Shown here one piece after another: positions 9,420 through 63,914 of a stretch of DNA of 64,000 nt (position 1 is its first letter; each line of letters opens with the position of its first letter). Below the pieces are notes generated by a model that searched no databases, was not told the DNA's origin, and saw nothing but the letters and a program-made list of their open reading frames with translations. Source of the DNA: Methylorubrum extorquens (GTDB lineage Bacteria > Pseudomonadota > Alphaproteobacteria > Rhizobiales > Beijerinckiaceae); the NCBI RefSeq assembly GCF_024169925.1, contig NZ_JALJXF010000001.1:1494001-1558000 (forward strand). The letters run 5' to 3'. A program made the position numbers and the translations under genes.

Positions 9420-9585
9420 ACGGCAGGTCTCCTGGCTCGCGGGTCGTGGCCGTCTCACCGTCTTCCCGGACGAGGCTGTCCAGTGACGTAGTGGTGAAGA
9501 GCTCGCCGCTTACAGTTGCGGGGGCAGCCGCGGCATCGGAGCGAACCCCACACCGCGTTCCCTTTTGATCCCCGAAGGGAACCGT
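9420..9585 (-). promoter_or_regulatory. Cobalamin (AdoCbl-type) riboswitch
   Basis: On the minus strand this stretch carries the hallmark blocks of the RF00174 class in order: a GGGAACGCGGTG start, GGTTCGCTCC, the B12 box region GCTGCCCCCGCAACTGTAAG, a CACTACGTCACTGG arm, CCGGGAAGACGG, and the closing GAGCCAGGAGACCTGCC. The last block ends about 140 bases before the receptor start. In this class binding of cobalamin normally shuts off expression, so the downstream operon should be induced when B12 is scarce. Boundaries are approximate and the expression-platform hairpin was not resolved. Confidence 0.95.
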
Positions 9586-9852
9586 CTCAGCTTGGCTATT
9601 CGACTTGGAATGGGCTGTCAATTCGTTCTCTCAACCTTCACAGGGCCGTGTTGAAGCTTCCAACCTGGCGCTGGCGGGGAAGCGAACAGTCGAGGCGATG
9701 TCAGAGGCTGGGGCAGGAGCGGACCTTCAGCCATCCGCATGCGAATGTCTGTTGATGGCGCAAATGAGAAACGCCAGCTGAGTTGCTTGAGCGCCCCCAT
9801 CGGAGAAGCGGCGAGGGTCGGCTGTATGATCGGGGGTGTGCCGCGTCAGGCT

Positions 9853-38832: not shown

Positions 38833-38834
38833 AT

Positions 38835-40952: not shown

Positions 40953-41125
40953 TGATCGACGCCCTCGCCTTCAGAAACCCCCATCGTTCGCACCACGTCC
41001 CCGTGCCCCATTGCCTCGCTCGCTATCCAACCTATTACGATGCCCCACCCTTTCGCGTCCACCATGCAGTTCTAGGGATCTGCGCGGTGGGTGCCTGCGG
41101 AGCTTGCCGAAATCTTTTGCCTCCT

Positions 41126-41776: not shown

Positions 41777-43035
41777 TGCGCTCTCTTCGCTCGACGCTGG
41801 ATGCGCGCTTCCGCGATTGCTAACTCCGGGGCGGAACCCTCGATGACTATCGCAGCAGCCTCAAGGGCAGCTTGGGCCTGTTGGACGTTGTCTCGGGCGA
41901 GAGCCTCCTCAACCGCCTTAAGCGCGGAGCGAGCTGCTGCGCTCCGCTCCTCGGCACCTAACGCACTAGCCAAAATGAAGTTACTGTCGCGGCCCCGAGT
42001 TGCAGCGACCTGGCCGACCCGGCTTCCTCTAGACGAAAAACTCAAGACCCGAAGGTGTTGCGCGGAAATCTCTCCCACCACCTGCGGTGAATGTGTCGTC
42101 ACGATAAACTGGCAATTTGGGAATGCCCCCAAAAGCCATGGCATGACTTTGCGCTGCCATCGTGGATGCAGATGAAGTTCGACCTCATCTATAAGAACGA
42201 TAGCGCGACCTAGCCGAGATTCATTCCCTTCGCTGGAAATCATAGCAAGACGACGAGCCAGATCACCAGCTATCGATAGAAATGTCCGCTCGCCTGTAGA
42301 CAGCTGCTCAATATGGAGCTCGGTCTCTCCCTTTCTAATTGTGAGCCCGCGAGGGGGAATCGTACGATAGCCTAACTCCGAAAGTCCTGTTGCCGCTTCA
42401 ATGGATCGGCGAACTGTTTCTAGCTGGGGGTCTCGGTACGTCGCATCACGCCGTTGCCGGCGGAGCTCCTCGCTCTCCCGCTCCTGGAACCAATAGGTGA
42501 ATCCACGAAAATCTAGGCCGGACCTCTCACGGCTCTCCGAGAATGCGTCCCGTGCGCCATGCTTCGCAGAACCTGACTTACGTTTGGGTATATCAGCTAA
42601 AGCCCGGCGTTGGTCGTAATAAACCGGAAGACTGACGTCCGTTAAATAATATTGCTCACTTTCAGCCGAGTCAGCAATATGGCGAACGAGTTGGTTCAGG
42701 TCCTCAAACTCGCTGGATTTAGGCTTCAGTATGCGCTCACGGCTACCCTGCTTCGCAAGTGTCCAGCGGTACGTCTTGCAATCCTCCGTGACCTCAAGCG
42801 TTATTCGAGTCTCAGGCGCATTTATGCGTGTATCTCCGTCACTCAGTCGCCGAGCAGTAGCGCGCGCGTACAGGAGACGTGCTGAATATTGATCTAATAG
42901 GATCGAAATCGCGTCCAGCACGCTCGTCTTTCCAGCACCGTTCGCTCCGACAAGCACAGTTAGTCGCTCGTCAAAGTCGATGGTTTCACGCGAGAACCCC
43001 CGAAAGTCTCGCAGGACGAGTCGGTTGATTATCAT
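41773..43035 (-). CDS. ptuA: AAA/ABC-type ATPase, Septu PtuA-like
   Basis: This encodes a 420-residue ATPase related to SMC/RecF-type proteins. It has Walker A (LVGANGAGKTSVLDAI, near residue 30), signature-like LSTGERTFLSIAGDLARRL, and Walker B plus D-loop (AIVLIDEVELHLHPRWQ). The H-motif is FIVTTHSPQVVGEIS. Only a short helical insertion replaces the SMC coiled coil. It is translationally coupled to the HNH gene. Together they match the two-gene Septu system, in which the ATPase oligomer controls the nuclease. Confidence 0.85.
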   Translation of the reverse strand: MIINRLVLRDFRGFSRETIDFDERLTVLVGANGAGKTSVLDAISILLDQYSARLLYARATARRLSDGDTRINAPETRITLEVTEDCKTYRWTLAKQGSRERILKPKSSEFEDLNQLVRHIADSAESEQYYLTDVSLPVYYDQRRALADIPKRKSGSAKHGARDAFSESRERSGLDFRGFTYWFQERESEELRRQRRDATYRDPQLETVRRSIEAATGLSELGYRTIPPRGLTIRKGETELHIEQLSTGERTFLSIAGDLARRLAMISSEGNESRLGRAIVLIDEVELHLHPRWQRKVMPWLLGAFPNCQFIVTTHSPQVVGEISAQHLRVLSFSSRGSRVGQVAATRGRDSNFILASALGAEERSAAARSALKAVEEALARDNVQQAQAALEAAAIVIEGSAPELAIAEARIQRRAKRAQ

Positions 43036-46458: not shown

Positions 46459-49400
46459 CTATACCTCCTCCTTTGCCGAGCGATCCATGCCTGGGATCAT
46501 CGGTATCAAGCCGGCGCACGCGCTATGCTCTTCTGCCCAGCAGAACAGGTTGGCCAAGCGCATCTCCTCGACGCTCTTGGCCACGAGATCGAGCAGTCCC
46601 GGTGAGGCGACGAGAACGGCGAGACACCGCGCCCGGCTGATGGCGACGTTGAAGCGGTTGCGTGAGAGCAGGAAGGCTGCGTCGCGCGGCATGTCCTCGG
46701 CCCCCGAGGTCGCCATCGAGACCAGAACCACCTCCGCCTCCTGCCCCTGGAACTTGTCGACCGTGCCAACACGTGCGCCTGTTGGCAGGCGGCTTTTCAG
46801 GAGGTTCACCTGCATGTTGTAGGGGGCGACCACCAACACGTCGTCGAGGGTGATCGCACGCTTGTGCCCCCTACGGTCGACCACGCGCTGCCTCAGCAGG
46901 CTGTCGAGGAGAGCGCAAACCTCGTCGGCTTCCTCCTCCGACCGCTGCCGGCAGCCCGAATGCACGACGGGGCGGAAGGCCAGACCCGTGGATTTGAGGG
47001 CCGGATGGGCGCCAGGGGCCAGAACGAGCCGCTGTTGGGCGCAGCCGCTCTCTGCCTGCAACTGCCCATCGTAGACTGCCGCCGAGACGAAGCTGCAGAG
47101 GTCTGGGTGCATCCGCCAAGTGCGCGAAAGGAAGATGCCGCGTTCGGGTGGTACCACAGCATGGCCCTCGAGCAGATGATCGAGCGCCGAGGCGCCGCTC
47201 GCACGCGGGTGTGCGCCCTGAATTGGCTGGGCCAGCTGCATCTGGTCGCCCACGAGCACGAGCGCGCGCGCGCCTTGCGCCATCGCCACGAGGTTTCCGA
47301 GCGAAACCTGACCCGCTTCGTCTACGAACAGCACGTCGCGGCTGGCACGCAGTTCGTCGCGGGCAAACAGCCACGCGGTACCGGCAAGGATCGGCAGGGT
47401 TGGGTCGATGTGCTTGTTGTCCCCGACGCTCGCAACGTAACCGCGACCCGAAAATCCGTCCTCGCCGCCGCTGTCCTTCTTCTGCCCGAGCCTCACGATG
47501 GGCTGGCCCGCCTCGTGGAGCCGGCTCTCGACCGCGTGAAGCACGTTGTCGATCGCCTTGTGGCTGTTCGAGGCAATACCGACCGTCTTTCCATCGGCGA
47601 TCAACGCCGCGATGAGATGAGAAGTCGTGTAGGTCTTGCCAGCCCCGGGTGGTCCCTGGATCACAAGCCAGGAACGATCGAGCGCACGGACCGCCGCGAT
47701 CGCCGATGTGAGCAGCCGAGCGGGATCCTCGCGCGCCTCCACCGCGATGATGGGGCTGCCAGTTGCGCGCCCCGCCAGCCGAGGCGGCGTGCGAGCCAGC
47801 AGTGCAGCGATGTGTGGAAAGTCTGTACCGCCTGCCGCCATGTCTGCCGCGACCGTCCACACGGCTTGGCGCAGAACATCAACCTTCAGCGGCTTGCCAG
47901 GCATGAAGCTGGCTTCCTCCGGCAGGGGCCCACTGCGTTTGCCACGTTTCACCGTGACGAGCCGGGCCGCCTCATCCACGGTGACGATCGTTCCGGCCGA
48001 CGCGCCGCCCTGCGTGAGGTGGACCGGGCTGCCCGCGCGCAGCTTCGTCTCCTGTTCGGGATAGCGGAAGCGAAAGGTCAGGCTCTGCTTGTCCGTGCCG
48101 ATCCAGTCGTCACCGTCGCGCCGGCAGCCGGCGAGGCACTCCTCGTCTTCCTGCAGTTCCTCGAGCCCGCGTTCCTGGCGGTCAAAGTAGGCCCACCACG
48201 CTGGTTTCTGCTCGCGGCGGTGAAACCCCACGAGGTCGGCCATGAGCTGGCGCGTCTCGGCCCCCGGCAGGCTCGGATCGCCGGCGACCCGCGCCTCGAG
48301 CGCGGCTTGCTCGCGCTCGCGCTCCTCCCGGGTCTCACGGGCCTCATCCGCTTCGGGCCGTGGCTCTTCGGGCAAGGCGCGCCCGATCACAATGCCCGCA
48401 GTCTGCGCGAGCCCGACGAGCCAGTCGCGCAGCAGCACGGTCGAGAGACAGTCGTCGCGGTTGTAGTCGTGAATGGCCGCGAGGGCGCTCGCGTCGCCGG
48501 TCGTGCGCCAGCGATCGTACAGCACGAGGCTGTCGCCACCAGAGACCACCTCGGTTGTGCGGGGTGGCATGTAGAAGCGCTCAAGGCTCTTGATCGAGTA
48601 GCTCGGCTCGCCCACCCGCACGCCCTCTCGCACGACGCGGTAGAGGTCGACCATGCGGCCCTCCCGCAGGAGGTCGTCGACCGCGACCTCGGCCACCGCG
48701 TGCATCGAGGCGAGTCGGCGTAGGGCCGTTTTTTCATAGGGCGCGTAGTGGTAGAGGTGAGCGCCAGGGGCGCCCGAGAGACGGCGCGTCAGGAACGCCA
48801 TCACCTCGCTGAACGCGTGCTTCTCCTGGGCACGGTCATGCGCCCAGACGGCCAGGAAGCGCATACCGGGGTGGCCAGGCACCGGCGTCCCATCCGCGTC
48901 GCCGGGCTTCGCGCGCCAGAGCACGCCGCACAGGTACTCGAGGCCGCCCGGGTGCATCGGGTCGCCCTCGAAGTCGAAGAACAGGTCGTCCGGGTGAGGC
49001 TGCGGCAGGCGATCAAAGCCGAGGCCGTTGGCGTGCGGGAGGAGTTCGTGGACGCCGCGTTCCTCGTCCGCGCTCCGGCGCTGCAACCGAGCCTGCTGAA
49101 CGAGACGGGCGAGCGTCTCAGTGCCGATCCCCGACACGCGGTCCGCCCCGAGGGCGCCGAGTAGGGTCAGGGTCGAGACGCCGGTTTCCATCAGGCGCTG
49201 GCGCTGACGGCGCGAGATGTCCGCGACCCGGCAGAGATGATCGGCCTGCGTCCACGCGTCCTCGCAGGTCCCGCCCCACTCACACTTGCCGCAATGCCCG
49301 CATGGCTCGCCTTCAAGTCCGCTGGGCGTGTCGGCTGCGAACCGTTCGAGGCGCCGGGCGGCCCTGCGGACGTAGTGTCGGACCTCGGCGAGCCGGAACC

Positions 49401-49950
49401 GCTCAATCACGTGCGGCACAGCCGGATCGCCGCTGCCGAGCATCAGCGCACCGTGCTCGGCCACGCGCCCCTGCACCCGGGCCAGAAGGTCACCGTAGAG
49501 GGCGATCTGCAGCACGTGCGCGGGCTGGGCCGTGTGGGCGAGCTTGGCGTCCCACGGCTCGTAGGACCAGGCCCAGTTCGGGCAGGCGGCCTCGACCCGC
49601 ACGAGGAAGTCGGCGTAACCGATCCATGGCCCGTCCGCGAGAGCCGCCTGCGCGATCAGCGGCGCGCCGCGGTCCATCGCGGCGCGGGTCGCCCGCATAG
49701 CCTGCTCGGGGCTGCCTCGGCCGATCACGACCGGGGCGCCGTGCTGCGCATGGAGCGCGGCCAGGCAGCGATCCTCGTGTTCCTGCCCCTTCCTCTGAAC
49801 GAGCTCGGCCTGTGCGTCCACAACGGCCTCCGGCGGAGACCGCAGGCCGCGCCGTTTCTCCAGCGTCCAGGCCGCCGAGGTAGCGCAGCCGAGAAACGTC
49901 GCGAGGAAGGTCGGCGAGAGGCGACCGCTCTCGAGCGTCAAGGCCGGCAT
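46459..49950 (-). CDS. TM0106-type RecB-like nuclease fused to SF1 helicase
   Basis: This encodes a 1163-residue protein. The N-terminal half carries a RecB-like nuclease region with a zinc-type cluster (CGHCGKCEWGGTC). It also has an RNase H-like domain starting DDLFFDFEGDPMHPGG and containing YHYAPYEKTALRRLA and HDYNRDDCLSTVLLRDWL. The C-terminal half is an Upf1/Dna2-type helicase with Walker A IQGPPGAGKTYTTSHLI, Walker B VLFVDEAGQVSL, TVDKFQGQEAEVVLVSMATS and RNRFNVAISRARCLAVLV. Start ATG 49950 (MPALTLESGRLSPTF) is preferred over the longer frame. It lies between mcrC and a nuclease gene on the same strand, suggesting a joint DNA-degrading role. Confidence 0.87.
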   Translation of the reverse strand: MPALTLESGRLSPTFLATFLGCATSAAWTLEKRRGLRSPPEAVVDAQAELVQRKGQEHEDRCLAALHAQHGAPVVIGRGSPEQAMRATRAAMDRGAPLIAQAALADGPWIGYADFLVRVEAACPNWAWSYEPWDAKLAHTAQPAHVLQIALYGDLLARVQGRVAEHGALMLGSGDPAVPHVIERFRLAEVRHYVRRAARRLERFAADTPSGLEGEPCGHCGKCEWGGTCEDAWTQADHLCRVADISRRQRQRLMETGVSTLTLLGALGADRVSGIGTETLARLVQQARLQRRSADEERGVHELLPHANGLGFDRLPQPHPDDLFFDFEGDPMHPGGLEYLCGVLWRAKPGDADGTPVPGHPGMRFLAVWAHDRAQEKHAFSEVMAFLTRRLSGAPGAHLYHYAPYEKTALRRLASMHAVAEVAVDDLLREGRMVDLYRVVREGVRVGEPSYSIKSLERFYMPPRTTEVVSGGDSLVLYDRWRTTGDASALAAIHDYNRDDCLSTVLLRDWLVGLAQTAGIVIGRALPEEPRPEADEARETREEREREQAALEARVAGDPSLPGAETRQLMADLVGFHRREQKPAWWAYFDRQERGLEELQEDEECLAGCRRDGDDWIGTDKQSLTFRFRYPEQETKLRAGSPVHLTQGGASAGTIVTVDEAARLVTVKRGKRSGPLPEEASFMPGKPLKVDVLRQAVWTVAADMAAGGTDFPHIAALLARTPPRLAGRATGSPIIAVEAREDPARLLTSAIAAVRALDRSWLVIQGPPGAGKTYTTSHLIAALIADGKTVGIASNSHKAIDNVLHAVESRLHEAGQPIVRLGQKKDSGGEDGFSGRGYVASVGDNKHIDPTLPILAGTAWLFARDELRASRDVLFVDEAGQVSLGNLVAMAQGARALVLVGDQMQLAQPIQGAHPRASGASALDHLLEGHAVVPPERGIFLSRTWRMHPDLCSFVSAAVYDGQLQAESGCAQQRLVLAPGAHPALKSTGLAFRPVVHSGCRQRSEEEADEVCALLDSLLRQRVVDRRGHKRAITLDDVLVVAPYNMQVNLLKSRLPTGARVGTVDKFQGQEAEVVLVSMATSGAEDMPRDAAFLLSRNRFNVAISRARCLAVLVASPGLLDLVAKSVEEMRLANLFCWAEEHSACAGLIPMIPGMDRSAKEEV

Positions 49951-50162
49951 GTCCCCATCCCTGCGCCTCCGGCCTTGGCAGGCACCGGTTAGCGTAGGAA
50001 GCGCGTACCACAGGTTGATGTGTCGGGCCTGCAACAGTTGGTCGGCTACGCGCGGCATCCGATTGGCCGGGATAAGCAACCGATAGCTGAGTGTCCGGTG
50101 CCAAATCTTGCGAAGGCTTCACCGTCGGTATCGCAACAGGGGACGCGGGACCGAGGATGGAC

Positions 50163-51497
50163 CTAGGTCGCCGAGGCCTCGACGGGGCGCGATGTGGCCA
50201 GCCTCGCGAGCCTATCCCCGATCGTCGACCTCTGCCCGAGCCGAATGGTGGCGACCGTCAGCCGGTCATCGCCGCCCTCGATGCGGTGCTGGCCGATGAC
50301 GCCCTCGGGCTGGGTCAGGGTGCCGTGATGCGGGTAGAGCAGCATCAGTTGCGGGCAGCCGTAGAGGCGTCCATACGCCATCAGCTGATAGACGTCGCCT
50401 TGTGCGACGCCCCGCTTGGGGTCATCGACCCGCGAGGCCAGACGCTTCCACTTCGTGTCGATGATCAGCTGAGGCGTGCCCTTCCGGCTGACGATGATAT
50501 CGGGCCGAGTAAGAAAGCGTTTGGCGCCGCTCGCCCCGTCTTCGTTGAGTTCGATCAGGCAGTAACGGCCACCTCCCTGGAGGCGTACCGTGACCCCCTC
50601 TCCGGCGAGGGATCGCGCCAGCAGGCGCCCCACATACTCCTCGAACAGCACGTTCATCTCGAAGAGAAGCGCGTAGCCCTGCGCCCGGCCGCGCGAGGTC
50701 GTTTGGAATTTGCCGCCGAGGAACAGACGCGCCAGCCGTTTCAGCTCGCCCCAGCGCGCGTTGGTCCGATCGATGACCGCCTCCTCCCAGCGCAGGGCCG
50801 GAACCGGGATGTCGGCGATCTCGGCAAATGCGAAGGTGAGCTCGCGCAGGCTGCGGACGTTCTCAGGGGTGCGGGCGAGAGACGCGAGGCGTGACACTGC
50901 CGCCTTCATGATCTGGTTGAGGGCGATGTCGGGCGAGAGCGCATCGTAGCGGCAGGCCAGACGCTGCGGCGAAGCGGCGAGCGCCGAGAACTGCCGCACC
51001 ACGTCGAGGCGGCCGCGCAGCGCCGGCAGATCGTCGGCCCGGGAAACGTACCGACGCGGCAGGCCCCGGCGCACCGCCTCGAAGAGCTTGGTGCAGAAGT
51101 GGCGGATCAGCACCTCGAGGAGCGTCTCGTGCTGCGTGCCGAGCGCCGTCTCGGGCCCAACGGCGATGTCGAGATCGAGGGCGACCGCGAGCATGTGGAT
51201 CAGCTCGCGCCTGAGCGCCGCCGGCCTGTCGGCGTGATCCTCCCCAACGCCGGCCAGGTCGATCTTTGGCAGGATCTCGAGGGTACACCCCTCGGCCACG
51301 AGGACACCCACGATCTGGCCGGCCCGGATCGCGTCGCGCCCGTGCTGCAGGATGCGGCCGCCATCCTCCCCACCCAGCTCGGTACGCCGGGCCACCGCCG
51401 CAAGCCGATCGGCCATGGCCATGGGGATCGTGTCGCTTCGGGCGAGGTCCTCGCCATATGGCAGGCGGCCCCATTCGAGCACCGTGCGCGTGATCAT
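50163..51497 (-). CDS. mcrC: McrC-type restriction nuclease subunit
   Basis: This encodes the 444-residue partner of the McrB GTPase. The N-terminal beta-rich part (GVLVAEGCTLEILPKIDLAG) precedes the family segment RYVSRADDLPALRGRLDV. The PD-(D/E)XK site is TRPDIIVSRKGTPQLIIDTK, with Asp, Asp and Lys present. The ATG overlaps the McrB stop as ATGA. McrBC systems cut DNA carrying modified bases; here the catalytic core looks intact. Confidence 0.92.
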   Translation of the reverse strand: MITRTVLEWGRLPYGEDLARSDTIPMAMADRLAAVARRTELGGEDGGRILQHGRDAIRAGQIVGVLVAEGCTLEILPKIDLAGVGEDHADRPAALRRELIHMLAVALDLDIAVGPETALGTQHETLLEVLIRHFCTKLFEAVRRGLPRRYVSRADDLPALRGRLDVVRQFSALAASPQRLACRYDALSPDIALNQIMKAAVSRLASLARTPENVRSLRELTFAFAEIADIPVPALRWEEAVIDRTNARWGELKRLARLFLGGKFQTTSRGRAQGYALLFEMNVLFEEYVGRLLARSLAGEGVTVRLQGGGRYCLIELNEDGASGAKRFLTRPDIIVSRKGTPQLIIDTKWKRLASRVDDPKRGVAQGDVYQLMAYGRLYGCPQLMLLYPHHGTLTQPEGVIGQHRIEGGDDRLTVATIRLGQRSTIGDRLARLATSRPVEASAT

Positions 51498-54205
51498 GCG
51501 AAGCCGACGTAGGCGTCAGGCGGGAACGGGTCACGGACCGTCCACCGGACGCGCGGCGACATGTAATCGTCGGTGGTCATTCCAGGCGGCGGTTTGAGCT
51601 CCGTGCGCACGAGGAACCGACCCTCCCCGGGCTCGGCGTCGGCATCCCCCAGGACGATCGCCACCCGCGTCCAGTCCTCGAAGAAGTACTCGACCAGCAG
51701 TGGGATCACCTTGGTCCGCATCACGGCGTCGATCTTGGTGCGCGTGTCACAGCCGATGAAGTACGCGTGTCCGATCTGATGCTCACGATCGAAGAGATAC
51801 TCGATGCGCTCGTTGAGGATGCGCAGCAGGTTGCGGAGCGGGACGTCGTCGACGAGTTCCGGGAGCGAATTCGGATCCGGCATCAGCTCGCGAAAGGTGA
51901 ACCGACGGCGCAGCGCCGTGTCGAGCAGCGCGATCGAGCGATCGGCGGTGTTCATTGTACCGATGATGTGGAGATTGGCCGGCACCCCAAATGTGCTGCG
52001 CGAGTAAGGAAGCTGCACCTCGAGTGCGTTCGGTTCGCCGAGGCGCTTGTCTGGCTCAATCAGCGTGATCAGCTCGCCGAACACCTTGGAGATATTGGCA
52101 CGGTTGATCTCGTCGATGATGAGCACGAAGGGAACCGGGGGGTGAGCGTCCGCGCTCTCGCGGTTCGACAGGATGTAGCGTTCGAGAACGGGCCTGTTGA
52201 TGCCGCTCGCGGCGAGCTCGTAGATTGACGCCATGGCAAAGGCACGGTCGAAGATGTCACTGACCGGGGCGCCGTCCCGGCTCACCCAGAGCCATCGCAC
52301 CGGTCGCTGGTTGACATAGCCGTCCGTCTCGCGAGGCACATACCGGTAGGGTCCGACGACTTCGCCGATTGCCCGGAAGAGGCTGTTACCCTTCGACACG
52401 ATGATGATGTCGCCGGTGCGAACCTCGTTGCGCAGGATGTACGGAAAGCGAACGTAGCCGACATTGCCGTGCACCGCCTCGTCGGATGCGTGATCCGGGT
52501 GATGCGGCCGCCAAGCCTCGATCATCGCCTCCCGACTGGCGAAGGCCTCGTCCGACCAATCGACCCGGTCGCCCCAGCCGAGCAGCACGGAATTGGTCTC
52601 GATCGCGTCCTCGAAGATGTGCTCGTCGGCCGCGTTGTTGGCTCGCCCGATCGACATCTTGAAGAACTTCTTGTTAGTAAGGTCGTAGCTGGCATTGCTC
52701 TGGCCGCCGCTGGTCAGCGCGCTGCGCGCCAGCCGGACGAATGCGCCAGGCTCCGGCTCCAGCGTGAATCCTGCACCGGGTTCACCTGACTCCGAGGGGA
52801 TCGGCTTCGGGCGCAGGCCCTCGATGAACTCCTCGTACGCGTACGACTGATGGAAGGTCACGAAGGCGATCTGCTTGAGGTCGCAGAGTTCGCGGTACTT
52901 CGTCATGACGGCCGTTCGATCCTCGAGATCGATGCCGTCGCTCCCGCACAGCCTGACGGCCTCGGCGGCCGTCCTGAAGGTCTTTCCCGTCCCCGGTGGG
53001 CCGTACAGGATCAGGTTCGTGGGCTCTGGTGTGGGTGCCGACACGGCAGACTCCGGGATCGAACCTCGTGGGAGCCCGGCCGCGCGATCGCGACACGTGA
53101 CCCAGATAAAGCCTTGGACATCGAAGAGGTCGCGCGGGCGCCAACCCCAGGCATCGCGCATGACGGCGAAGATCGCCCGGCTGAGGTCGAGCACGGCGGC
53201 GTACTCGGTGCGGCTCAGCGGGCCGTTCGCGAAGAGGGAGCGGCCGAGCAGCATCATGCCGACGTTGTAGAACGGCTGGTAGCGGACCAAGATGGCCTCA
53301 TCGGGCCGCACGAGGGCGAGAACGAGGGTCGGCAGCACGCGGCTCTCGGCGTAGGGCATGCTCGCCTCGCGCCCCGCGGACAGGGCCGGCCAGGTGGCCT
53401 CGACGAAGCGGGCCGCGGCCTCTTCCGGTGCCGCGGCATCACGGGCCAGTCGCCCAGTTGCCGCCTCCAGCAGGCCGGGATGACTCTCGCGCACGGCGCG
53501 CAGCAACTCGTTCGTGCGGAAGTTGCCGAGCAGGTTGTGGTCGCGACCGAGCAGCACCTCGAGAATTCTGTTGCCGAGCGCCGTGTCGTCATCGGTTGAG
53601 CCGTCGACCAGCGCTCGGACCCGGGCGATTAACGCGCGCTTGTAGGCATCCTCGTCCGCGTGGAACTTCCCGGTTCCGGCCGGGAAGGCGTCGGGCAGGA
53701 AGTCCGGGTAGGCCGCCAGGAAGATCTGCTTCAGCCGCTCCAGCACCGTCCGGTCGGGGCCGGGGCGGCGCGTATCATACCAGTCGAGGAGCTGACCGAC
53801 GGCGGCCTCGGCGAGCTTCACGCTTGCCACCGCGCGCGGAAACCCCTGCTTCCGCCACTCCTCGCGCGGATCGTGATTTAGGCGGGGCGGCAGATTCGAG
53901 TGGCGGCCCTGCTTGGCCGCGTATGCGGTCACGTCGCCGATCGGCGGCGAGCCCTGCAACCCGCTGGTCTCGATCCAGAGGGTGATCATGGCGACATCGC
54001 GCTGCAGCCCGATCTGGCGTCCGTCCGGAAGCTGAAACCCGACCAATTTGCCGTTCGGCTTGTCGCCGCACACGGGCGTGCCGTAGCGCGTGCGAAGCGC
54101 CGCTTCAGCGAAAGCGACACCGGAGGACGACGCTCCGTCGGCTGGCAGCGGCGGTGCGCTGCTCGCGAGGGGCGCCCCGGTCTCGTTCGGATCCTCACCG
54201 GCCAT
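51494..54205 (-). CDS. mcrB: McrB-type AAA+ GTPase with PUA/EVE-like insertion
   Basis: This encodes a 903-residue motor subunit. Residues 1-390 form an N-terminal targeting region. Walker A is YGPPGTGKTF at 401-410, Walker B is LIIDEINRANIS at 695-706, and the McrB signature IIGTMNTADRS is at 747-757. The stretch VTFHQSYAYEEFIEGLRP at 449-466 is standard for McrB. Between Walker A and B lies an extra block of about 180 residues (505-685). It contains SVLLGWGDRVDW, VGYVRFPYILRNEVRTGDII and LFRAIGEVVGPYRYV, which resembles EVE/PUA modified-base readers. Ordinary McrB proteins have a much shorter spacer. The gene is coupled to mcrC. Confidence 0.92.
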   Translation of the reverse strand: MAGEDPNETGAPLASSAPPLPADGASSSGVAFAEAALRTRYGTPVCGDKPNGKLVGFQLPDGRQIGLQRDVAMITLWIETSGLQGSPPIGDVTAYAAKQGRHSNLPPRLNHDPREEWRKQGFPRAVASVKLAEAAVGQLLDWYDTRRPGPDRTVLERLKQIFLAAYPDFLPDAFPAGTGKFHADEDAYKRALIARVRALVDGSTDDDTALGNRILEVLLGRDHNLLGNFRTNELLRAVRESHPGLLEAATGRLARDAAAPEEAAARFVEATWPALSAGREASMPYAESRVLPTLVLALVRPDEAILVRYQPFYNVGMMLLGRSLFANGPLSRTEYAAVLDLSRAIFAVMRDAWGWRPRDLFDVQGFIWVTCRDRAAGLPRGSIPESAVSAPTPEPTNLILYGPPGTGKTFRTAAEAVRLCGSDGIDLEDRTAVMTKYRELCDLKQIAFVTFHQSYAYEEFIEGLRPKPIPSESGEPGAGFTLEPEPGAFVRLARSALTSGGQSNASYDLTNKKFFKMSIGRANNAADEHIFEDAIETNSVLLGWGDRVDWSDEAFASREAMIEAWRPHHPDHASDEAVHGNVGYVRFPYILRNEVRTGDIIIVSKGNSLFRAIGEVVGPYRYVPRETDGYVNQRPVRWLWVSRDGAPVSDIFDRAFAMASIYELAASGINRPVLERYILSNRESADAHPPVPFVLIIDEINRANISKVFGELITLIEPDKRLGEPNALEVQLPYSRSTFGVPANLHIIGTMNTADRSIALLDTALRRRFTFRELMPDPNSLPELVDDVPLRNLLRILNERIEYLFDREHQIGHAYFIGCDTRTKIDAVMRTKVIPLLVEYFFEDWTRVAIVLGDADAEPGEGRFLVRTELKPPPGMTTDDYMSPRVRWTVRDPFPPDAYVGFA

Positions 54206-54954: not shown

Positions 54955-55515
54955 TTGAGCAATCCATCGCCCGCTCTCAAGCTCAGTCCCGCGGCCATTG
55001 AGGCGGCAAACCGCGCCGAGGCGAGCGCGCTGCTGATCCGCTGCGGCTACCGCGTCTACCGGCCGGAGGCCGACATTCAAGGCGAGGATCTGGTCCTTCG
55101 TACACCGGAGGGCGGCCTGCACGGCGTCCAGCTGCAGTCCCGTCCGATGGTGGACTGGAGGCGCTACGGCGCCCGCGAGCTGTTGATGCTGTTTCCCGCT
55201 GATCCGTTCACGCCGGATGCACCCCGGCCCTGGTTTCTGGTCCCGCACGATACTCTGTACAGCTGGGTGAAGGAGCGCCATGGCGCCGCCAGGGGCTGGG
55301 CGGAGGCCTGGAGTTACCCCAGCCGCCAGCCGGGCTCTGCGCGCGTTCCTTGCGCCTCACCGCGTGCGACCGCCGGCCGAGCCAGGGACACACACGGAGC
55401 CTGGTTCGCCGTAGGTGGCGCGGATCCGGCTCACCCCTCGGGATTGGCCCGAGCCGAGAAACGATCGCGCGCCGTGAGGCGATCGGCGGGCAGCCCCTCG
55501 CAGGGGCGGCGGTAG
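54955..55515 (+). CDS. Hypothetical protein, 3' end possibly frameshifted
   Basis: This is a 186-codon frame from TTG 54955. The first 120 residues look coding (EASALLIRCGYRVYRPEADI, GEDLVLRTPEGGLHGVQLQS, RPWFLVPHDTLYSWVKERHG) and resemble a small restriction-endonuclease-like fold. After about residue 125 this frame becomes Arg/Ser-rich and runs 85 bases into the convergent exonuclease gene. Another frame then gives AASRALRAFLAPHRVRPPAE and stops at 55413-55415, before the neighbour. A frameshift near 55315-55335 is likely. Function unknown. Confidence 0.6.
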   Translation: MSNPSPALKLSPAAIEAANRAEASALLIRCGYRVYRPEADIQGEDLVLRTPEGGLHGVQLQSRPMVDWRRYGARELLMLFPADPFTPDAPRPWFLVPHDTLYSWVKERHGAARGWAEAWSYPSRQPGSARVPCASPRATAGRARDTHGAWFAVGGADPAHPSGLARAEKRSRAVRRSAGSPSQGRR

Positions 55516-56321
55516 ACTGCTTCGCTCAGAAAACGACGCTCGATCTCAAGCTGATCCTCCTCGAGATCGACGTACCAGCAGCGCCGCGTTGGGCTCCAGC
55601 GATACGCGCGCGCCCGCAGCAGATCCTTGGTCTCGAACGGCGAGCCCTGCGCCCACGGCCGTACGGTCGGGCGCCGGGCAGTCTCCAGCAGGCAGGCGAG
55701 TGCGAGCCGCCCAGAGGCCCGCAGCGGCGCGTCGAGCAGGCGCAGCAGGGCGTGGCAGTCGTCGATCGCCCGGTGCCCGCGATGGAAGTAGCCGTGATCG
55801 GCGAGCAGGTAGCCGAGCTTCAGGCCCTCGTGCCCCTCCGTCCGCCAGGGGATCTGATGGCAGGAGCAAGCCCAGTTGCGCTCGGCAAAGACCGGCCAGC
55901 GCCGCTCGCACATCTGCCGGTCGAAACTCGCATTGTGAGCGATGACCACCGCCGCGTCCCGGGCCAGCGCCTCGACCGCAGTATCGTCGATGCGCTGGCC
56001 CGCGACATCTGCATCGGTGATCCCGGTCAGCCGCGTGATGGCCGGCGGGATCGGCCGGCTCGGCTGATGCAGCTGGTTGAAGGCCTCACGCACGCGATAG
56101 ATGCGACCGCTGGCGCCGTAGGTGAACCCAAGGATGGCGAGCTCGATGACCTCGTCGGTTGCTACATCGGTGCCGGTGGTCTCGACGTCGAGAACGAGGC
56201 CGGTGAAGGTCGGCTCGTCCGGAGGCTCGACGCGGTCGGGCAGCGGCGTCAGCCGGCGCAGCACCCGGTAGTCCCCAGTGCCTTCAAGGACGGCCGCGAT
56301 GCTATCGAGAGGCTGGTTCAC
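55431..56321 (-). CDS. DnaQ-like 3'-5' exonuclease
   Basis: This encodes a 296-residue exonuclease of the DEDDh family. ExoI is FTGLVLDVETTGTD (Asp, Glu), ExoII is VVIAHNASFDRQMCE and ExoIII is HRGHRAIDDCHALLRLL (His, Asp). All metal ligands are present. A C-terminal segment (YRWSPTRRCWYVDLEEDQLE) is seen in relatives associated with DNA repair. The GTG start at 56321 (VNQPLDSIAAVLE) is chosen because upstream residues are Arg/Pro-rich filler. Confidence 0.87.
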   Translation of the reverse strand: MNQPLDSIAAVLEGTGDYRVLRRLTPLPDRVEPPDEPTFTGLVLDVETTGTDVATDEVIELAILGFTYGASGRIYRVREAFNQLHQPSRPIPPAITRLTGITDADVAGQRIDDTAVEALARDAAVVIAHNASFDRQMCERRWPVFAERNWACSCHQIPWRTEGHEGLKLGYLLADHGYFHRGHRAIDDCHALLRLLDAPLRASGRLALACLLETARRPTVRPWAQGSPFETKDLLRARAYRWSPTRRCWYVDLEEDQLEIERRFLSEAVYRRPCEGLPADRLTARDRFSARANPEG

Positions 56322-56599
56322 CTGCCGTCGCCTCAGCTGTGCGCTCCCGGGCCGGCGAGCGCTTTGCCCGGGCCGCCATGGACAAAGCTTAGCGGCGGGG
56401 ATGCGTCGCTGACCAGCGCGAGCGCGCCTCCGTGCTAGAGGCACGCACAGGTTCCGTCTTCCTTCGCGCCGCGAGGCGGCGTTCGCGGCCGATATTGCCG
56501 TTGATCGTCCGGCCCGACGAAGAGCTCCGGACCTTGCGCCATCACCTCACAAGCTTCGCAACCGCCACGGCAACGGGGTTCGGCCGCCGAAGCCCAACA

Positions 56600-57661
56600 T
56601 CAGTTTTGATCGACGACCGCCTTCCACGCGCGTAGCCTGGAGACATTGCCCTGAAGCCAGTCGCGCAGGACGACCGCCTGTTCGATGCCGCGAATGAGTG
56701 GCGCCCGCTGGTCGCTGAAGATGCCCTGATTAAAAACAGGCGGCGTGGGGCAAGCGACAACAAGACCTGGGTTCGGTCGAGCCTTCGTTGGCGCGTCGGC
56801 CGAGACGAACGCCCCGAGTGGCGCCATTTCGGTCTCGATCGTATCCTTCAGGGCCTCTATCGAACGTCCCCAGCCCCCAAAGGTCACGGCCACGTAATTC
56901 GCGCGATGATCCCGGCCCAATCCCAGCTCGTGAGAGAAGCGACGAGGCAGCAGATCGGAGGGCAGCCCAGGTAGCGACAGCACATGATCGAATATCATCG
57001 ACGTGCTCTCGTCCGGACTGGAAGGTTTCAGCATGCTCTTGCCTGGTCGAACTGAGGGCGCGATCTCGGCAAGCAGTGCGACGTAGCGGGCGTTGAAGTC
57101 GCCTACGGTCTTGTTCGGGATCGGTGTGTAGCCACGGCGGTGCTTGTTGATCGCCTGCTCCAGGATCCCCTGTCGGAACCGTGCTCGGGCTGCGCCCTCG
57201 CCGGTCCGTTCGCGGCCGGCGCGATCAAAATAGTCGACCAAGGCTTCGTAGGTGACCACCCCATCGAACTTACCGGTGAAAACCGGGTGGGCGCGCGCGT
57301 AGGCTTCCGGGCAGACGATCAGCATGGAGGCGGCGGAATAATCCTCGCTGATTCTGGCGAGCTCCTCGCGGTAGCTTTCCGCTTGATCGGGCTGATCATC
57401 CGCATCGAGCTTGTTCTCGATCAGTATTGCGCACCGGCCGCCGGCCTTCGATCGCAGATCGACAAAGATGTCGATTTCCCGCCGGCTGCGAGTGCGCCGT
57501 TTGCTGTGAAGAACACTCGACACCTCGATGTTGACTGTGAGGTTCGTCTGGGCCGTGATCCAGGCGGTAAAGGCAGGCGAGGCATAGAGTTCCTCGACCA
57601 GCAGGAGATCGATGTCCCGCTCGGTGGCGTGGGTCAGCGTCGGGATGAACTCATCACTCAT
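56600..57661 (-). CDS. PD-(D/E)XK nuclease superfamily protein
   Basis: This encodes a 353-residue protein. The nuclease core is REIDIFVDLRSKAGGRCAIL followed by IENKLDADDQPDQAESYREE, the D...ExK and trailing Gln of the PDDEXK_4 group. The C-terminal half (KSMLKPSSPDESTSMIFDHV, ANYVAVTFGGWGRSIEAL) is a separate alpha/beta domain. Start ATG 57661 (MSDEFIPTLTHATERDI) is chosen. Such proteins are common in defence islands as single genes, and the partner is unknown. Confidence 0.82.
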   Translation of the reverse strand: MSDEFIPTLTHATERDIDLLLVEELYASPAFTAWITAQTNLTVNIEVSSVLHSKRRTRSRREIDIFVDLRSKAGGRCAILIENKLDADDQPDQAESYREELARISEDYSAASMLIVCPEAYARAHPVFTGKFDGVVTYEALVDYFDRAGRERTGEGAARARFRQGILEQAINKHRRGYTPIPNKTVGDFNARYVALLAEIAPSVRPGKSMLKPSSPDESTSMIFDHVLSLPGLPSDLLPRRFSHELGLGRDHRANYVAVTFGGWGRSIEALKDTIETEMAPLGAFVSADAPTKARPNPGLVVACPTPPVFNQGIFSDQRAPLIRGIEQAVVLRDWLQGNVSRLRAWKAVVDQN

Positions 57662-57871
57662 GGGTGCTCCGCGTCGATTGGGGGATGGACCAGCGCAGAC
57701 GGCAGGAGGGGGGGACGGCATGGCGCGCCAGCCCCCCTGATGTACGAGGTTCGCCAAGTCTGTTGGAGAACGCGTTCGTGAGCCAGGTTGGACCGATGCA
57801 CCTGCGATCGCGTTCTGGGAGCGTGATGACGTTGGCGGGGGCGACCCCTCGGGCCCTGGCAGATTCTGATG

Positions 57872-60148
57872 TCATGCGGGGCGCCCCAGCACCCGCCGCA
57901 GCAGCACGCCGCCGCGGGTTCTCCGCGTCTGAAAAGCGCGGCGAGGCTCGCTGCCGGTATAGACAACGACATCGGGCTCCTCGTCGGTGATGTCCCACAG
58001 CCGCGCTGAGCGGGCGACGATCAGCACGGCGCGTCCGGCCCGGACATGCGGCAGCAACCCATCCCGCACGAAGCGGCGAACCGCCCGGGAGGAGGCCAGT
58101 GCCGGCGCCGCGCGACTCGCCACGGCGCCCTCGCGCGAGTGGTAGGGGACGAGCTGGAGCATGCAGATGTCGGCGGCATCGGCTTGCGTGATGTCCGGTC
58201 CGAAGGTCCGGCGCGCCCAGCGGTGGCCCGGATGGGTCGCGTGCTCATCCAGAAGGTAGAGATACGGTTGGTCCCCGGCGAGGTTGGCCCGCAGCGCCGC
58301 CGCGAAGGCCGGGCGGGCCTCCTGCGTGGTGTCGTTCTCGCTCAGGCCCGGGTTCAGCGCGAGGATGTACGCCTTGGCGCTGCGCAGGGGGCCGGCCCAC
58401 GGAACGGGATGCAAACCGAGGGCGAAATCGTTCTCGGTGATGTGGCCGAGATCGTCCGGGTGAACACCGGCATTTCCCAGGCGCGACCAGAACGCGATGA
58501 ACTCGTCGACGGCCCGCGACCAGTCCGAGGCGGCCCCGGGGTGGGAGGCGGCAGTGGCGGCGGGTTCCGCGCTCCGGTCAAGCGTGTGCTTCGGAACGAG
58601 GCGCCCATCGCGAAACTCCATTGCTACGACCCCTGGGCGGAAGATCGTGACGCCTTCGCCGGTCTCGTAGAATCTCTCGGGTAGGGGCCTGAATGAGTGC
58701 TCCCGAGGGCTGCCGGCCTCGAACAGCTGCGCGGCCACGGTCTCGATCCGCTCGCGCCACGCCAGCAGCGTCAGCCATTCCTCGGGAATGCCCGCAAGAC
58801 CGTAGACTGCACCGGCGAGCTGTCCGGCGATCGCTGCCGTGGTGTCGGCATCGTCCCCGAGATTGGCTGCCAGCAGCACGGCGGAGCGGAAGTCGGTAGT
58901 ACGCGCCACCGCCCACACCGCGGCCTGAAGGGCGCGCACGACGTAGCCCGAGCCTTCGATCGCCGCACGGGACAATCCACGCCAGCCTCCCTCGATCGCC
59001 TCACCCGTTTCGCTCGCCAGCACCGTGTGCAAGGGCAGGCCGCCGATTGCCTGTGCCAGCAGGTCGGCGAACTGGCGCGAGCAGCGCAGCGTCGAGGGCG
59101 AGCCGTGCGTGGTGCGGGTCTGGCGGTCCGCGACCGCACGCAGGGTCTCCGCCTCGCGCCAGTGACGGATGGCGACCGGGGCAAGCCGCATCAGTGCGCC
59201 GTTGCCCGAGGCCGCCTCGCTCGTCGAACCGGCGACCGGATCATCCGTCTGCTCATAGCAGGCAAGCGCGGCCCGAGTGGCGTTGCCGATGTCGAAACAG
59301 GCTCCCGTGCAGGAGTAATCCCCGCGCCGGTACCAGGCGGTAAAGCGGTTCATCAGGTCGCGGGCATCGAGACCCGGATCGTGCACCAGGCTGTCGGCGA
59401 GGGCCAGCGCCAGAGCCGTGTCGTCGGTCCACTGCCCCGGCGCCAATCGAAACGGGCCGCCGCCGGTGATCGTCGTCAGGACCGCGCGGCGGGGTTTGGG
59501 CGAGAACTCGATCGTGGTCCCCAGCGCGTCGCCGATTGCCAGGCCGACGAGCGCGCCCACCGCACGGTCGCGCATCGCGGCAATCTCGGTCGATGGTTGA
59601 GGCAGCGGACGACCTCGTCCGGCAGCCACCCAACGCTCCTGCGCCGGCGTCTCGATCGCCCCGGGGCGTACCGCGCGCACTGCGGCCATCGCCGCGTCGG
59701 CGTCCAGCCCGGTCTCGACGAGGAGGCGTGCGGCGACCATGCCGGCCCGGCCAAGGCCGCCCCGGCAATGCACCAGAACGTGCGCGCCGCGAGCCAGTAG
59801 CCCCCGCAGTCGGGCCGAGAGCGAGGGCCAGCCTGCCTCGAAGGCCGTATCCGGCACCGACACATCGACGATCGGCGCGTGGTGCCACTCCATATGCCGC
59901 CGTCGCACCTCATCGCCGATCGCGGCGATCTGGACGCTGGCGAGTTCGTGCGCCTCCATCAGCGTCACCACCGCGGCGGCGTTCCAGGCGGCAATGACGT
60001 CGAGGTCGGCGCTGAGGTCGCGATGATGAGGGCCCGTCAGCCCGAATGGCTGACGCTTGCCCGGAGCGAACGTGAGGCCGATGCGTCCTCCCGCCCGGCC
60101 GACGGCGATCTCGGCGATCCGGAGCGGGGAAATTAGGGTCTTGGTCAT
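57872..60148 (-). CDS. Phosphatase / ADP-ribosylglycohydrolase / UDG-like fusion
   Basis: This encodes a 758-residue three-part protein. Residues 20-170 form a Cys-dependent tyrosine/dual-specificity phosphatase with its P-loop HCRGGLGR at 127-134 and an Asp-containing loop before it. Residues 190-480 form an ADP-ribosylglycohydrolase with metal-binding motifs GLAIGDALG (203-211), QWTDDTALALA (239-249) and NLGDDADTTAAIAG (429-442). Residues 545-758 contain AYILALNPGLSEND (593-606), CMLQLVPYHSRE (662-673) and VLIVARSARLW (708-718), which recalls the uracil-DNA glycosylase superfamily. An AAGGAGG site precedes the ATG. All visible catalytic residues of the first two domains are present. The combined task is unknown. 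Confidence 0.82.
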   Translation of the reverse strand: MTKTLISPLRIAEIAVGRAGGRIGLTFAPGKRQPFGLTGPHHRDLSADLDVIAAWNAAAVVTLMEAHELASVQIAAIGDEVRRRHMEWHHAPIVDVSVPDTAFEAGWPSLSARLRGLLARGAHVLVHCRGGLGRAGMVAARLLVETGLDADAAMAAVRAVRPGAIETPAQERWVAAGRGRPLPQPSTEIAAMRDRAVGALVGLAIGDALGTTIEFSPKPRRAVLTTITGGGPFRLAPGQWTDDTALALALADSLVHDPGLDARDLMNRFTAWYRRGDYSCTGACFDIGNATRAALACYEQTDDPVAGSTSEAASGNGALMRLAPVAIRHWREAETLRAVADRQTRTTHGSPSTLRCSRQFADLLAQAIGGLPLHTVLASETGEAIEGGWRGLSRAAIEGSGYVVRALQAAVWAVARTTDFRSAVLLAANLGDDADTTAAIAGQLAGAVYGLAGIPEEWLTLLAWRERIETVAAQLFEAGSPREHSFRPLPERFYETGEGVTIFRPGVVAMEFRDGRLVPKHTLDRSAEPAATAASHPGAASDWSRAVDEFIAFWSRLGNAGVHPDDLGHITENDFALGLHPVPWAGPLRSAKAYILALNPGLSENDTTQEARPAFAAALRANLAGDQPYLYLLDEHATHPGHRWARRTFGPDITQADAADICMLQLVPYHSREGAVASRAAPALASSRAVRRFVRDGLLPHVRAGRAVLIVARSARLWDITDEEPDVVVYTGSEPRRAFQTRRTRGGVLLRRVLGRPA

Positions 60149-60149
60149 T

Positions 60150-60173
60150 CTGTCCTCCTTGGTTGCAGGACAG
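60150..60173. promoter_or_regulatory. Possible operator: perfect short inverted repeat
   Basis: CTGTCC and GGACAG flank a 12-base centre in the 90-base divergent spacer. The left arm and centre cover the ribosome-binding site of the fusion gene. It could bind a repressor or fold in the mRNA, but a 6-base repeat may be chance. Confidence 0.25.
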
Positions 60174-60238: not shown

Positions 60239-60886
60239 ATGAGTAGGGCGTATGTCGGCTTCTACTGGACGCTGCCAGTCAACCGGATCGGCTTTCGTCA
60301 CCTGCCCCGGGACGCGGCCGCCGCGGCCGCGGTGAGCACCACGATCCGCTACCAGCGCGCCCTGACACACCGCTACGTCCTTGCCTTGGAAGGCCGTCTG
60401 GAAGGGCGGCTTCTCGGCGAGATCGCCTTCATGGACACCCGGCCCGACCGTGCGACTGCGGCCGTGCATGAGGCGCTGGACCGGGTCGGCGAGTTGACGG
60501 GCGGGCGGCGCGCCGCGTTGATCCATGTCGCCTTCGACGAGCGCTCCTGGCGCGACAATCGCTATCTCGTCGATCACCTGCGGACGTTGGACATCGAGCG
60601 CATCCCGCTCTCGCCGGAGCCGATCATCCTCGACGACCAACGCCTCGATCCCGTCCAGCACTTCGCGGACTGGCGCGAACGCGAAACCGAAGCCATGGCC
60701 GCGCTGCGTCTCGACGCCTACGCCGGACTGCGGGCCGCCTTGGCAGACGTACCCGAAGGCGAGGGCCGCTGGCGCGTGATCAGTGATCGGCTGAACGCGC
60801 GAGGCATTCGAACGGTGCGCGGCGGGCCCTGGAACCCAGAGAATGTGCGCAAGCTCGCCGGCCGCCTGCCGGAGAACGGGATGTGA
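60239..60886 (+). CDS. Recombinase-like protein, divergent from the fusion gene
   Basis: This encodes a 215-residue protein. The N-terminal 120 residues (RAYVGFYWTLPVNRIGFRHL, ALIHVAFDERSWRDNRYL) form an alpha/beta domain reminiscent of a resolvase or nuclease fold without a clear catalytic Ser. The C-terminal 45 residues (WRVISDRLNARGIRTVRGGP, WNPENVRKLAG) match the DNA-binding recombinase domain of large serine recombinases. It may be a decayed recombinase or a DNA-binding regulator. Confidence 0.65.
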   Translation: MSRAYVGFYWTLPVNRIGFRHLPRDAAAAAAVSTTIRYQRALTHRYVLALEGRLEGRLLGEIAFMDTRPDRATAAVHEALDRVGELTGGRRAALIHVAFDERSWRDNRYLVDHLRTLDIERIPLSPEPIILDDQRLDPVQHFADWRERETEAMAALRLDAYAGLRAALADVPEGEGRWRVISDRLNARGIRTVRGGPWNPENVRKLAGRLPENGM

Positions 60887-62900: not shown

Positions 62901-63914
62901 TCAGGCAGCGGCGTCGTCGAGAGCGGTACACGCCTCAGCAAGGCACGCGCGATAGCGGATCCGGAGCACCTCGGGCGCAAGGACTTCGACGTGGGCTCCC
63001 CATGTAAAGAGGTGCCACACCATCTCCGTCAAACCGGACGCCGTGAACGCGACGGTGACCCGCCCGGCCGCGTCCTCGCTGACCCGCTGATCGCGATGAA
63101 ACCGGAAGCCGCGCGCGTCTCCGGCGACCGCCGCTGAGAAGCGCCAGACCACGTCGAAGCGCTCGCCGTCCCAGAACGCCCCGAACGAGCGGGCGGCGAA
63201 GGCCTGGAGGTCGAACCCCTCGTCGCGCACGAACCCGGTCTCCATTGGCGTGAGACGTTCGATGTTGCTAATCGCGTACAACCGGTGCTCGCGCACCTCC
63301 GGGTGCGGATTGAAGCCAACGAGGTAGGCGCGTGACCCGGTGAGGAAACCGTAGGGATGCAGCAGCGGGAAGGAGCGCTCGGCCGTGTCGCGCCGTCGGT
63401 AGACGAGCCGGACCACACGGTTGGCGAGAAACGCGTCCCGCAGCCCCGAGACGATGGCCGGTTCGAGGGTCTCCTCCGGACCCGGTCTCACGACGGCGCC
63501 CGTCCCCCGCAGCAGGTCAGAGAGGTCTCCCTCAACCGGACGCCACGCTGCGCGCGTTTGTGCCGCCTCAAGCTTCAACGCGAGGCTCGTCAATCGCTCG
63601 GCCTCGAGGCGCAGACCCTGCTGCTGAGCGCGCTCCGCTGCGAGGCGCAGTTCCAAGAGTTCGTCGCGACTCGGTGGCAGCAGCGTCGCCAACCGCCCCG
63701 CGGGTACGCGCCAGCGCTTCGTGCCGTCCTCAAGGACCTCCTCTCGCAGCGCGTGCGGCATGAGCCGGTGCAGGGCGTCACGCAGGCGCTCGGCTGTGCG
63801 CCGCCCGACGCCCAGCAGCGTGGCCATCTCGTCAAGCGTCAAGCCAACTCGTGCATCGGCCAGCGCCAGGCCGAGTGTCAGAAGCCGCTCGGCTGGGGCG
63901 TACCGCCTGCTCAT
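62901..63914 (-). CDS. WYL-domain transcriptional regulator
   Basis: This encodes a 337-residue regulator. An N-terminal winged helix (LTLDEMATLLGVGRRTAERL) is followed by a linker and a WYL domain from about residue 165 (VVRLVYRRRDTAERSFPLLH, PYGFLTGSRAYLVGFN, LYAISNIERL). The C-terminal WCX part ends HVEVLAPEVLRIRYRA. Regulators of this build (BrxR/CapW type) often control defence operons by sensing nucleic acid or nucleotide signals. It is a candidate master regulator of the island, though its operon continues outside the window. The 286-base gap before ArdC shows no gene. Confidence 0.9.
   Translation of the reverse strand: MSRRYAPAERLLTLGLALADARVGLTLDEMATLLGVGRRTAERLRDALHRLMPHALREEVLEDGTKRWRVPAGRLATLLPPSRDELLELRLAAERAQQQGLRLEAERLTSLALKLEAAQTRAAWRPVEGDLSDLLRGTGAVVRPGPEETLEPAIVSGLRDAFLANRVVRLVYRRRDTAERSFPLLHPYGFLTGSRAYLVGFNPHPEVREHRLYAISNIERLTPMETGFVRDEGFDLQAFAARSFGAFWDGERFDVVWRFSAAVAGDARGFRFHRDQRVSEDAAGRVTVAFTASGLTEMVWHLFTWGAHVEVLAPEVLRIRYRACLAEACTALDDAAA

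Follow-up and report, generated by a model that had tools for sequence, protein, structure and literature searches.

A predicted phosphatase, ADP-ribosylglycohydrolase and UDG-like fusion protein in a defence island of Methylorubrum extorquens

A 64,000-nucleotide stretch of the Methylorubrum extorquens genome (assembly GCF_024169925.1, contig NZ_JALJXF010000001.1, positions 1,494,001–1,558,000; hereafter the window) encodes a 758-aa protein that joins a Cys phosphatase of the dual-specificity/protein tyrosine phosphatase (DSP/PTP) type, an ADP-ribosylglycohydrolase (ARH) and a domain resembling the uracil-DNA glycosylase (UDG) superfamily. The gene lies in a defence island, and the source genome (5.26 Mb, 4 contigs) is rated 100% complete. 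The protein is a variant of a predicted ARH–phosphatase immune family with an added UDG-like domain, and it is rare among bacteria. An earlier reading of the DNA without database searches (the sequence-only reading) had proposed a triple fusion in a defence island; the fusion is confirmed here, with all three domain assignments supported, and the neighbouring genes bear out the island. Fused proteins often betray parts that share one pathway.

Domain architecture of the fusion protein

57872..60148, minus strand: triple-domain fusion gene, 758 aa (open reading frame; full-length relatives P0001–P0009)
60154..60159, minus strand: Shine-Dalgarno motif AGGAGG (sequence letters)
59627..60049, minus strand: DSP/PTP-type Cys phosphatase domain, residues 34–174 (C128-X5-R134, D95; PF22784, 42.5 bits)
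58778..59557, minus strand: ARH domain, residues 198–457 (PF03747, 214.8 bits)
58526..58696, minus strand: flexible tether, residues 485–541, containing a short beta segment (predicted model)
57875..58525, minus strand: UDG-superfamily-like, Brig-related domain, residues 542–758 (LNPG motif 598–601, W644, YHS 669–671)

The open reading frame starts with ATG, preceded by the AGGAGG motif, and one of its full-length relatives, P0001 of Methylobacterium hispanicum, has 90% identity. The model of the whole protein has a pLDDT of 92.0 and a pTM of 0.70.

Residues 34–174 match PTP-SAK (PF22784) and related dual-specificity phosphatase families in Pfam, with both PF22784 and PF22785 above cut-off. 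The CX5R signature of this domain is the loop HCRGGLGR. In an alignment of the query with its 120 best listed relatives, D95, H127, C128 and R134 are identical in all 121 sequences. The same is true of D207, T241, D242, D243, D433 and D435 in the ARH domain, which are taken here to be metal and catalytic positions; catalytic-type residues are conserved in both of the first two domains.

The ADP_ribosyl_GH model (PF03747) is covered whole by residues 198–457, and no second match to it was found in the source genome. The best PDB sequence match is 6dre (E 4.8e-67), presumably the immunity hydrolase that accompanies the Tri1 toxin, followed by 2cwc and DraG-type hydrolases. The best NCBIfam match is the Tri1-type ADP-ribosylarginine hydrolase model NF041672, to which the domain aligns over 61–359 of 361 model positions. 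The score of 313.6 bits lies under the cut-off of 490, however, the N-terminus differs and no toxin partner was found. The DraG model TIGR02662 gives 164.2 bits, under its cut-off of 337.05.

The third domain has the overall fold of the UDG superfamily in the predicted structure and matches the NCBIfam model of Brig1, an anti-phage DNA glycosylase (NF047634; 21.4 bits, E 1.4e-4), though far under the 230-bit cut-off. These two results support its earlier assignment as UDG-like. It has no Pfam UDG match, PF03167 included; sequence identity to Family 4 UDG, UdgX and TDG structures is 6–18% in the alignments. The usual second UDG motif is presumably absent. Among 177,635 distinct PDB chain sequences there was no match at E≤10. 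Foldseek against viral models returned nothing at E≤0.001, and 4 of the first 8 rows, all above that value, are named uracil-DNA glycosylases; no Brig structure is among the 50 VIA-align matches listed.

Across 116 members of the third-domain family, the positions conserved in at least 95% include W554, H563, D566, D606, W644, Y669, S671 and R713; such near-invariant positions are as expected of an enzyme. N599 is present in 21 members, which keep the NPG motif, and is replaced by Ser in 90 of the 116. By eye, without an alignment, NPG resembles N50-P51-S52 of Brig3 as given in the excerpted text of PMC13160076. The domain is like Brig1 and Brig3 in its UDG-superfamily-like fold, its remote Brig1-profile match, its NP(G/S) motif and its place in a defence island, and an ADP-ribosyl glycohydrolase neighbour has been reported for theirs. 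It differs in staying far from the Brig1 cut-off, in being fused to the phosphatase and ARH domains (PTP-ARH), and in a glycosylase activity that is only predicted. Judged from sequence and model, it is probably a remote Brig-like glycosylase domain and a new element of the family.

In the full-length model the segment before it has pLDDT below 50 at residues 485–492 and 522–536, with strands between 494 and 519, which fits a third domain that would be flexibly tethered behind PTP-ARH.

Relation to known and predicted systems

Immune systems centred on an ADP-ribosylglycohydrolase (ARG) were predicted by Iyer et al. 2022 (PMC9503650, section 3.8) and interpreted as counter-ADP-ribosylation immunity. 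Slightly more than 55% of them have a coupled phosphatase, mostly a rhodanese-phosphatase (R-P), fused to the ARG or encoded by an adjacent gene. They have a variable effector nuclease of the restriction-endonuclease (REase) fold, a Nudix or WYL regulator in more than 42%, often a chaperone (vWA, TY-Chap) or ARPP gene, and no coupled ADP-ribosyltransferase (ART) or sirtuin gene. The term "DNA glycosylase" is absent from the main text of that paper.

The window fusion resembles these systems in its ARG domain, its R-P phosphatase in the same polypeptide and a nearby REase-fold PD-(D/E)XK gene (PF14281, 56600–57757), and no ART or sirtuin gene was found among 20 window open reading frames scanned with Pfam. 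It is unlike them in its C-terminal UDG-like domain. The WYL gene, in the island but not adjacent, is a possible further likeness. The scanned neighbours gave no Pfam match to a chaperone (vWA, TY-Chap) or ARPP, in scans not aimed at these families. Other features of the predicted systems occur with PTP or ARH genes elsewhere: adjacent WYL genes in Leisingera and Fuscovulum, PD-(D/E)XK nucleases, and Nudix and KptA genes in Acidovorax. The sequence-only reading was aware of no published system that combines these domains, which stood in one part of three: the PTP and ARH pair is described in PMC9503650, and a DNA glycosylase is not named there. A PTP-ARH-UDG fusion was found in no paper of the open-licence literature searched.

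An ADP-ribosyl glycohydrolase has twice been reported beside anti-phage DNA glycosylases, and in the available portions of both papers it is given no role. A predicted one adjoins the brig1 and N. zhouii loci (PMC11078745, in excerpt), and ORF3 of the brig3 clone is another, dispensable against T4(5hmC) (PMC13160076, a preprint, in excerpt). In the same excerpt BapA deglucosylates 5hmC for Brig3. Homologues of brig1 have been reported mostly from Actinomycetota. In excerpted sections of two further papers, ARH-like hydrolases are inactive on guanosine-base ADP-ribose in RNA, with some active on phosphate ends (PMC11833690), and UDG is among the domain abbreviations of the systems predicted by DefensePredictor (PMC13092281).

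Distribution of the core and of the third domain

Relatives of PTP-ARH are common, with 1,575 proteins at E≤0.001 among 7,992 scored. A PTP and/or ARH match was found at E≤1e-30 in 37 of 111 genomes of the genus, and at E≤1e-40 in 12 of 385 genomes of the class, for which at most 4 candidates were scored per genome. DUF6508 (PF20118, precomputed) stands behind ARH in 45 of the 120 best listed relatives, and the UDG-like tail in nine (P0001–P0009). The DUF6508 proteins, such as P0010, have the common PTP-ARH core, with 59–70% identity over the aligned part, and DUF6508 occupies the place of the UDG-like tail. A search for long proteins with residues 542–758 returned eight, all within P0001–P0009; P0007 is missing from that list, yet its UDG-like tail is visible among the whole-protein relatives.

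At E≤0.001 the third domain is present in 10 of the 111 genus genomes. Three of these have it fused (G000, G077 and G090), and seven have a stand-alone or partial copy. The G090 fusion has a stop codon inside the ARH part. The triple-fusion gene of M. segetis (L024:6384–8648) has an in-frame TGA within the ARH part, by decay or sequencing error.

Sixteen loci with third-domain relatives were found in genome contigs, several with short flanks, and PTP or ARH occurs in the fetched flanks only at L024. At 7 of 14 inspected loci (L025, L026, L028, L032, L034, L037 and L038) the relatives adjoin housekeeping-looking genes, whose identities were judged from sequence. Neighbours at the other inspected loci are small or not recognisable; those of L036 and L039 include recombinase-like genes. 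An AlkB gene accompanies a stand-alone homologue on plasmid pTB4. Five IMG/VR contigs encode a relative; terminase genes are found on L117 and L120, a portal gene also on L120, and an integrase gene on L118. No INPHARED phage record matched the third domain of the window at E≤0.01. The stand-alone family is patchy, sometimes phage-borne, and not a typical island gene, and third-domain relatives as default defence-island genes find no support in the neighbours of the 14 inspected loci. The sequence-only reading had foreseen trouble if the third domain were not UDG-like or if homologues were housekeeping genes outside defence islands. The first does not apply; the second does in part, through the seven housekeeping-like stand-alone loci and the copies on phage contigs.

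Two stand-alone UDG-like relatives on viral contigs (L117:6004–6705 and L120:5827–6645) are possible phage-borne cargo. Another relative (L028:8001–8489) is on a Methanoperedenaceae archaeon contig, close to what are presumably CO-dehydrogenase/acetyl-CoA-synthase genes.

Split and plasmid versions

Split versions, suggested earlier as something to look for in other genomes, were found on a plasmid of Roseomonas haemaphysalidis (NZ_CP061181.1). This plasmid has separate, adjacent genes for ARH (8971–9942), PTP (9939–10493) and a UDG-family protein, P0241 (10539–11216; PF03167, 27.3 bits, cut-off 24.3). A REase-ARP/PDDEXK_13 nuclease gene is next, and an SRAP gene is 0.6 kb upstream. SRAP proteins bind abasic sites. 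P0241 was not returned by tblastn of plasmids with the third domain of the window, so the pairing may be independent. It has no NCBIfam match at E≤0.01 and no PADLOC match at E≤0.001. Its relatives were found in 0 of the 385 class genomes at E≤1e-5, in a search without a control, and plasmids yielded only P0241 itself. The locus as a whole (L050:7002–13171), which unites SRAP, ARH, Cys phosphatase, UDG-family and REase-ARP genes, has the appearance of a split toolkit, possibly an independent one.

Of 27 plasmid records matching the whole protein, 12 were opened; their gene tables are incomplete, and record H3 carries no annotation. No annotated UDG is near PTP or ARH in the 11 opened records other than that of Roseomonas. 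On Leisingera and Fuscovulum plasmids PTP-ARH directly follows a WYL gene and precedes PD-(D/E)XK and UvrD-helicase genes; on an Acidovorax plasmid ARH is next to Nudix and near a KptA gene. In one opened plasmid ARH adjoins DUF6508, and in one a phosphatase gene is ~4.4 kb from an SRAP gene. Two Rhodobacterales plasmid loci (L067:3549–13122 and L115:2867–12591) have the order AAA ATPase, WYL, PTP-ARH, PD-(D/E)XK and UvrD helicase, with HEPN after PTP-ARH in L115.

Genomic neighbourhood

60239..60886, plus strand: conserved divergent partner, 215 aa, separated from the fusion gene by 90 bp
62901..63914, minus strand: WYL/WCX transcription factor, upstream in the island (PF13280 and PF25583 above cut-off)
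56600..57757 (start perhaps 57661, from coding score), minus strand: PD-(D/E)XK_4 nuclease directly downstream of the fusion (PF14281, 27.1 bits, cut-off 22.3)
55431..56444, minus strand: DEDDh 3'-5' exonuclease (NF006615, 359.9 bits, above cut-off)
51494..54205, minus strand: McrB-like AAA protein (AAA_5; homologue near the fusion in L024)
50163..51497, minus strand: McrC (PF10117, 241.4 bits)
46459–50079: helicase with an RNase-H-like nuclease domain
41126–43035: Septu PtuB/PtuA genes
38835–40952: type III methyltransferase

The island also has an ArdC-like gene upstream of the fusion and insertion-sequence genes. Its WYL gene, 2.75 kb from the fusion gene, is similar to the WYL gene adjoining PTP-ARH on the Leisingera plasmid (phmmer, E 3e-48). 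No ART was found among the 20 neighbouring open reading frames scanned with Pfam, several of which match nothing; PADLOC alone was run on 4 further ones.

Domain positions in related loci were taken from six-frame searches. McrBC is close to the fusion in M. segetis (L024), where the gene after the fusion, of 436 aa, weakly matches a candidate defence family. The M. hispanicum locus (L093) has a WYL fragment and, downstream, a fragment of the PD-(D/E)XK_4 gene; McrBC was not found in its 16.6 kb. The PTP-ARH gene of L099 lacks the UDG-like tail and has a GmrSD gene 1.3 kb downstream. Modification-dependent restriction genes near the fusion or PTP-ARH (McrBC, GmrSD) are suggestive, supportive context.

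The divergent partner gene is conserved. Of 17 loci in which a single open frame contains both PTP and ARH, the window included, 9 have a divergent homologue, at domain-based gaps of 91–277 bp, and none was found in the other 8; another is divergent on a Cereibacter plasmid (L068). Homologues were found in L093–L099, L106 and L068. The C-terminus has a weak likeness to Pfam Recombinase (PF07508; E 0.029 and 0.0064, both below cut-off). That the partner is a regulator is a guess.

Possible function

The fusion may be a one-protein member of the ARH and rhodanese-phosphatase defence systems that gained a DNA-base-excision domain. The ARH part would hydrolyse ADP-ribose off a macromolecule ADP-ribosylated by a phage or rival, and the Cys phosphatase would take phosphate from the released product or a nucleic-acid end. 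The tethered UDG-like part would flip out a modified or ADP-ribosylated base and cut the base-sugar bond, and the abasic site would be left for neighbouring nucleases. Beyond the domain chemistry this mechanism is inferred, including catalysis by the third domain, its substrate, the order of the steps and phages as the target.

This reading is put forward tentatively, its probability being somewhat below even. The evidence that lends it this measure of support is the domain matches, the conserved residues, the UDG fold and Brig1 matches of the third domain, the Roseomonas split genes, and ARH beside brig1, N. zhouii and brig3 in the published excerpts. Defence genes cluster anyway, so the island context is suggestive only. 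A general ARH-UDG linkage was rejected as unproven: 40 PTP/ARH genome loci gave third-domain matches only at the L093 and L094 fusions. P0241 as query found nothing in these 40 loci outside its own record. The 37 genus genomes with PTP/ARH matches have 5–7 PF03167 matches per genome, and none of those listed was seen in the fetched PTP/ARH regions, with coordinates compared by eye among the matches listed, which is no proof of absence. The Brig1 model gave 0 matches in 299 Pseudomonadota genomes, a search that detected no control and is uninformative.

The best of the alternatives, itself doubtful, is that the PTP-ARH core is an active immune enzyme on phage-made ADP-ribose of proteins or nucleotides, and that the UDG-like tail does no more than localise it by binding DNA or nucleotides, being swappable with DUF6508. 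The 45 DUF6508 proteins among the 120 listed relatives fit this, as do the others that are too short for any tail, the Ser in place of the NPG Asn in 90 of 116 third-domain relatives, the flexible tether, and the function given by Iyer et al. (PMC9503650) to ARH and phosphatase without a glycosylase. However, the tail has many near-invariant polar and aromatic positions, stand-alone copies in many genomes indicate that the fold does something alone, and in Roseomonas the adjacent UDG-family protein is encoded separately.

In an unlikely alternative, phage bases would lose a phosphate/ADP-ribosyl-like decoration to the phosphatase and ARH, and the glycosylase would then excise the exposed base, as BapA acts for Brig3 in the excerpt of PMC13160076. 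That precedent, ARH adjoining brig1 and brig3 in the excerpted papers, McrBC or GmrSD nearby and the Roseomonas split genes are consistent with it. A phage DNA decoration of ADP-ribose plus phosphate was not found, though no search for one was made; the published ARH neighbour is dispensable against T4(5hmC) in that excerpt, and PTP-ARH is widespread without a glycosylase tail. With the same low probability, the fusion could be a self-contained multi-step enzyme that removes phosphate and ADP-ribosyl decorations from phage DNA before excising the exposed base. It would be the fused counterpart of an ARH-glycosylase pair that in split form has gone unrecognised beside brig1 and brig3, where ARH would be a decoration remover like BapA.

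Slightly less probable again is repair rather than defence, in which the third domain would act on damaged host DNA as an accessory glycosylase of base-excision repair and its fusion to PTP-ARH would be accidental. The housekeeping-looking neighbours at 7 of the 14 inspected stand-alone loci and the AlkB gene on pTB4 point this way. Against it, the domain is patchy (10 of 111 genus genomes), copies occur on phage contigs that also encode a terminase, portal protein or integrase, and the fused forms of the window and M. segetis sit with McrBC and other defence genes. The sequence-only suggestion of the antidote half of a modification system, here an antitoxin to a nearby-encoded ADP-ribosylating toxin, is very improbable: the best NCBIfam match of ARH is of Tri1 type (NF041672, 313.6 bits), but this is below the cut-off of 490, and no ART among the 20 scanned window open reading frames speaks against it.

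Cooperation of the phosphatase and ARH in immunity had been predicted before, and the UDG-like domain links them to phage-fighting DNA glycosylases. With the fusion and the Roseomonas three-gene set, joint ADP-ribose removal and base excision becomes a directly testable hypothesis. If it is true, the predicted ARH-phosphatase immune systems gain a DNA-directed effector, and there is a new branch of UDG-like proteins, found unfused in many genomes and also on some phage contigs.

Other observations

Similar uncharacterised genes of 235–303 aa are found downstream of PTP-ARH in two loci (L098:8512–9423 and L105:11070–11777), the L098 copy having no Pfam match at E≤0.1. Within the window, at 36238–43035, an 864-aa restriction-like protein with no PADLOC match at 1e-10 adjoins the type III methyltransferase.
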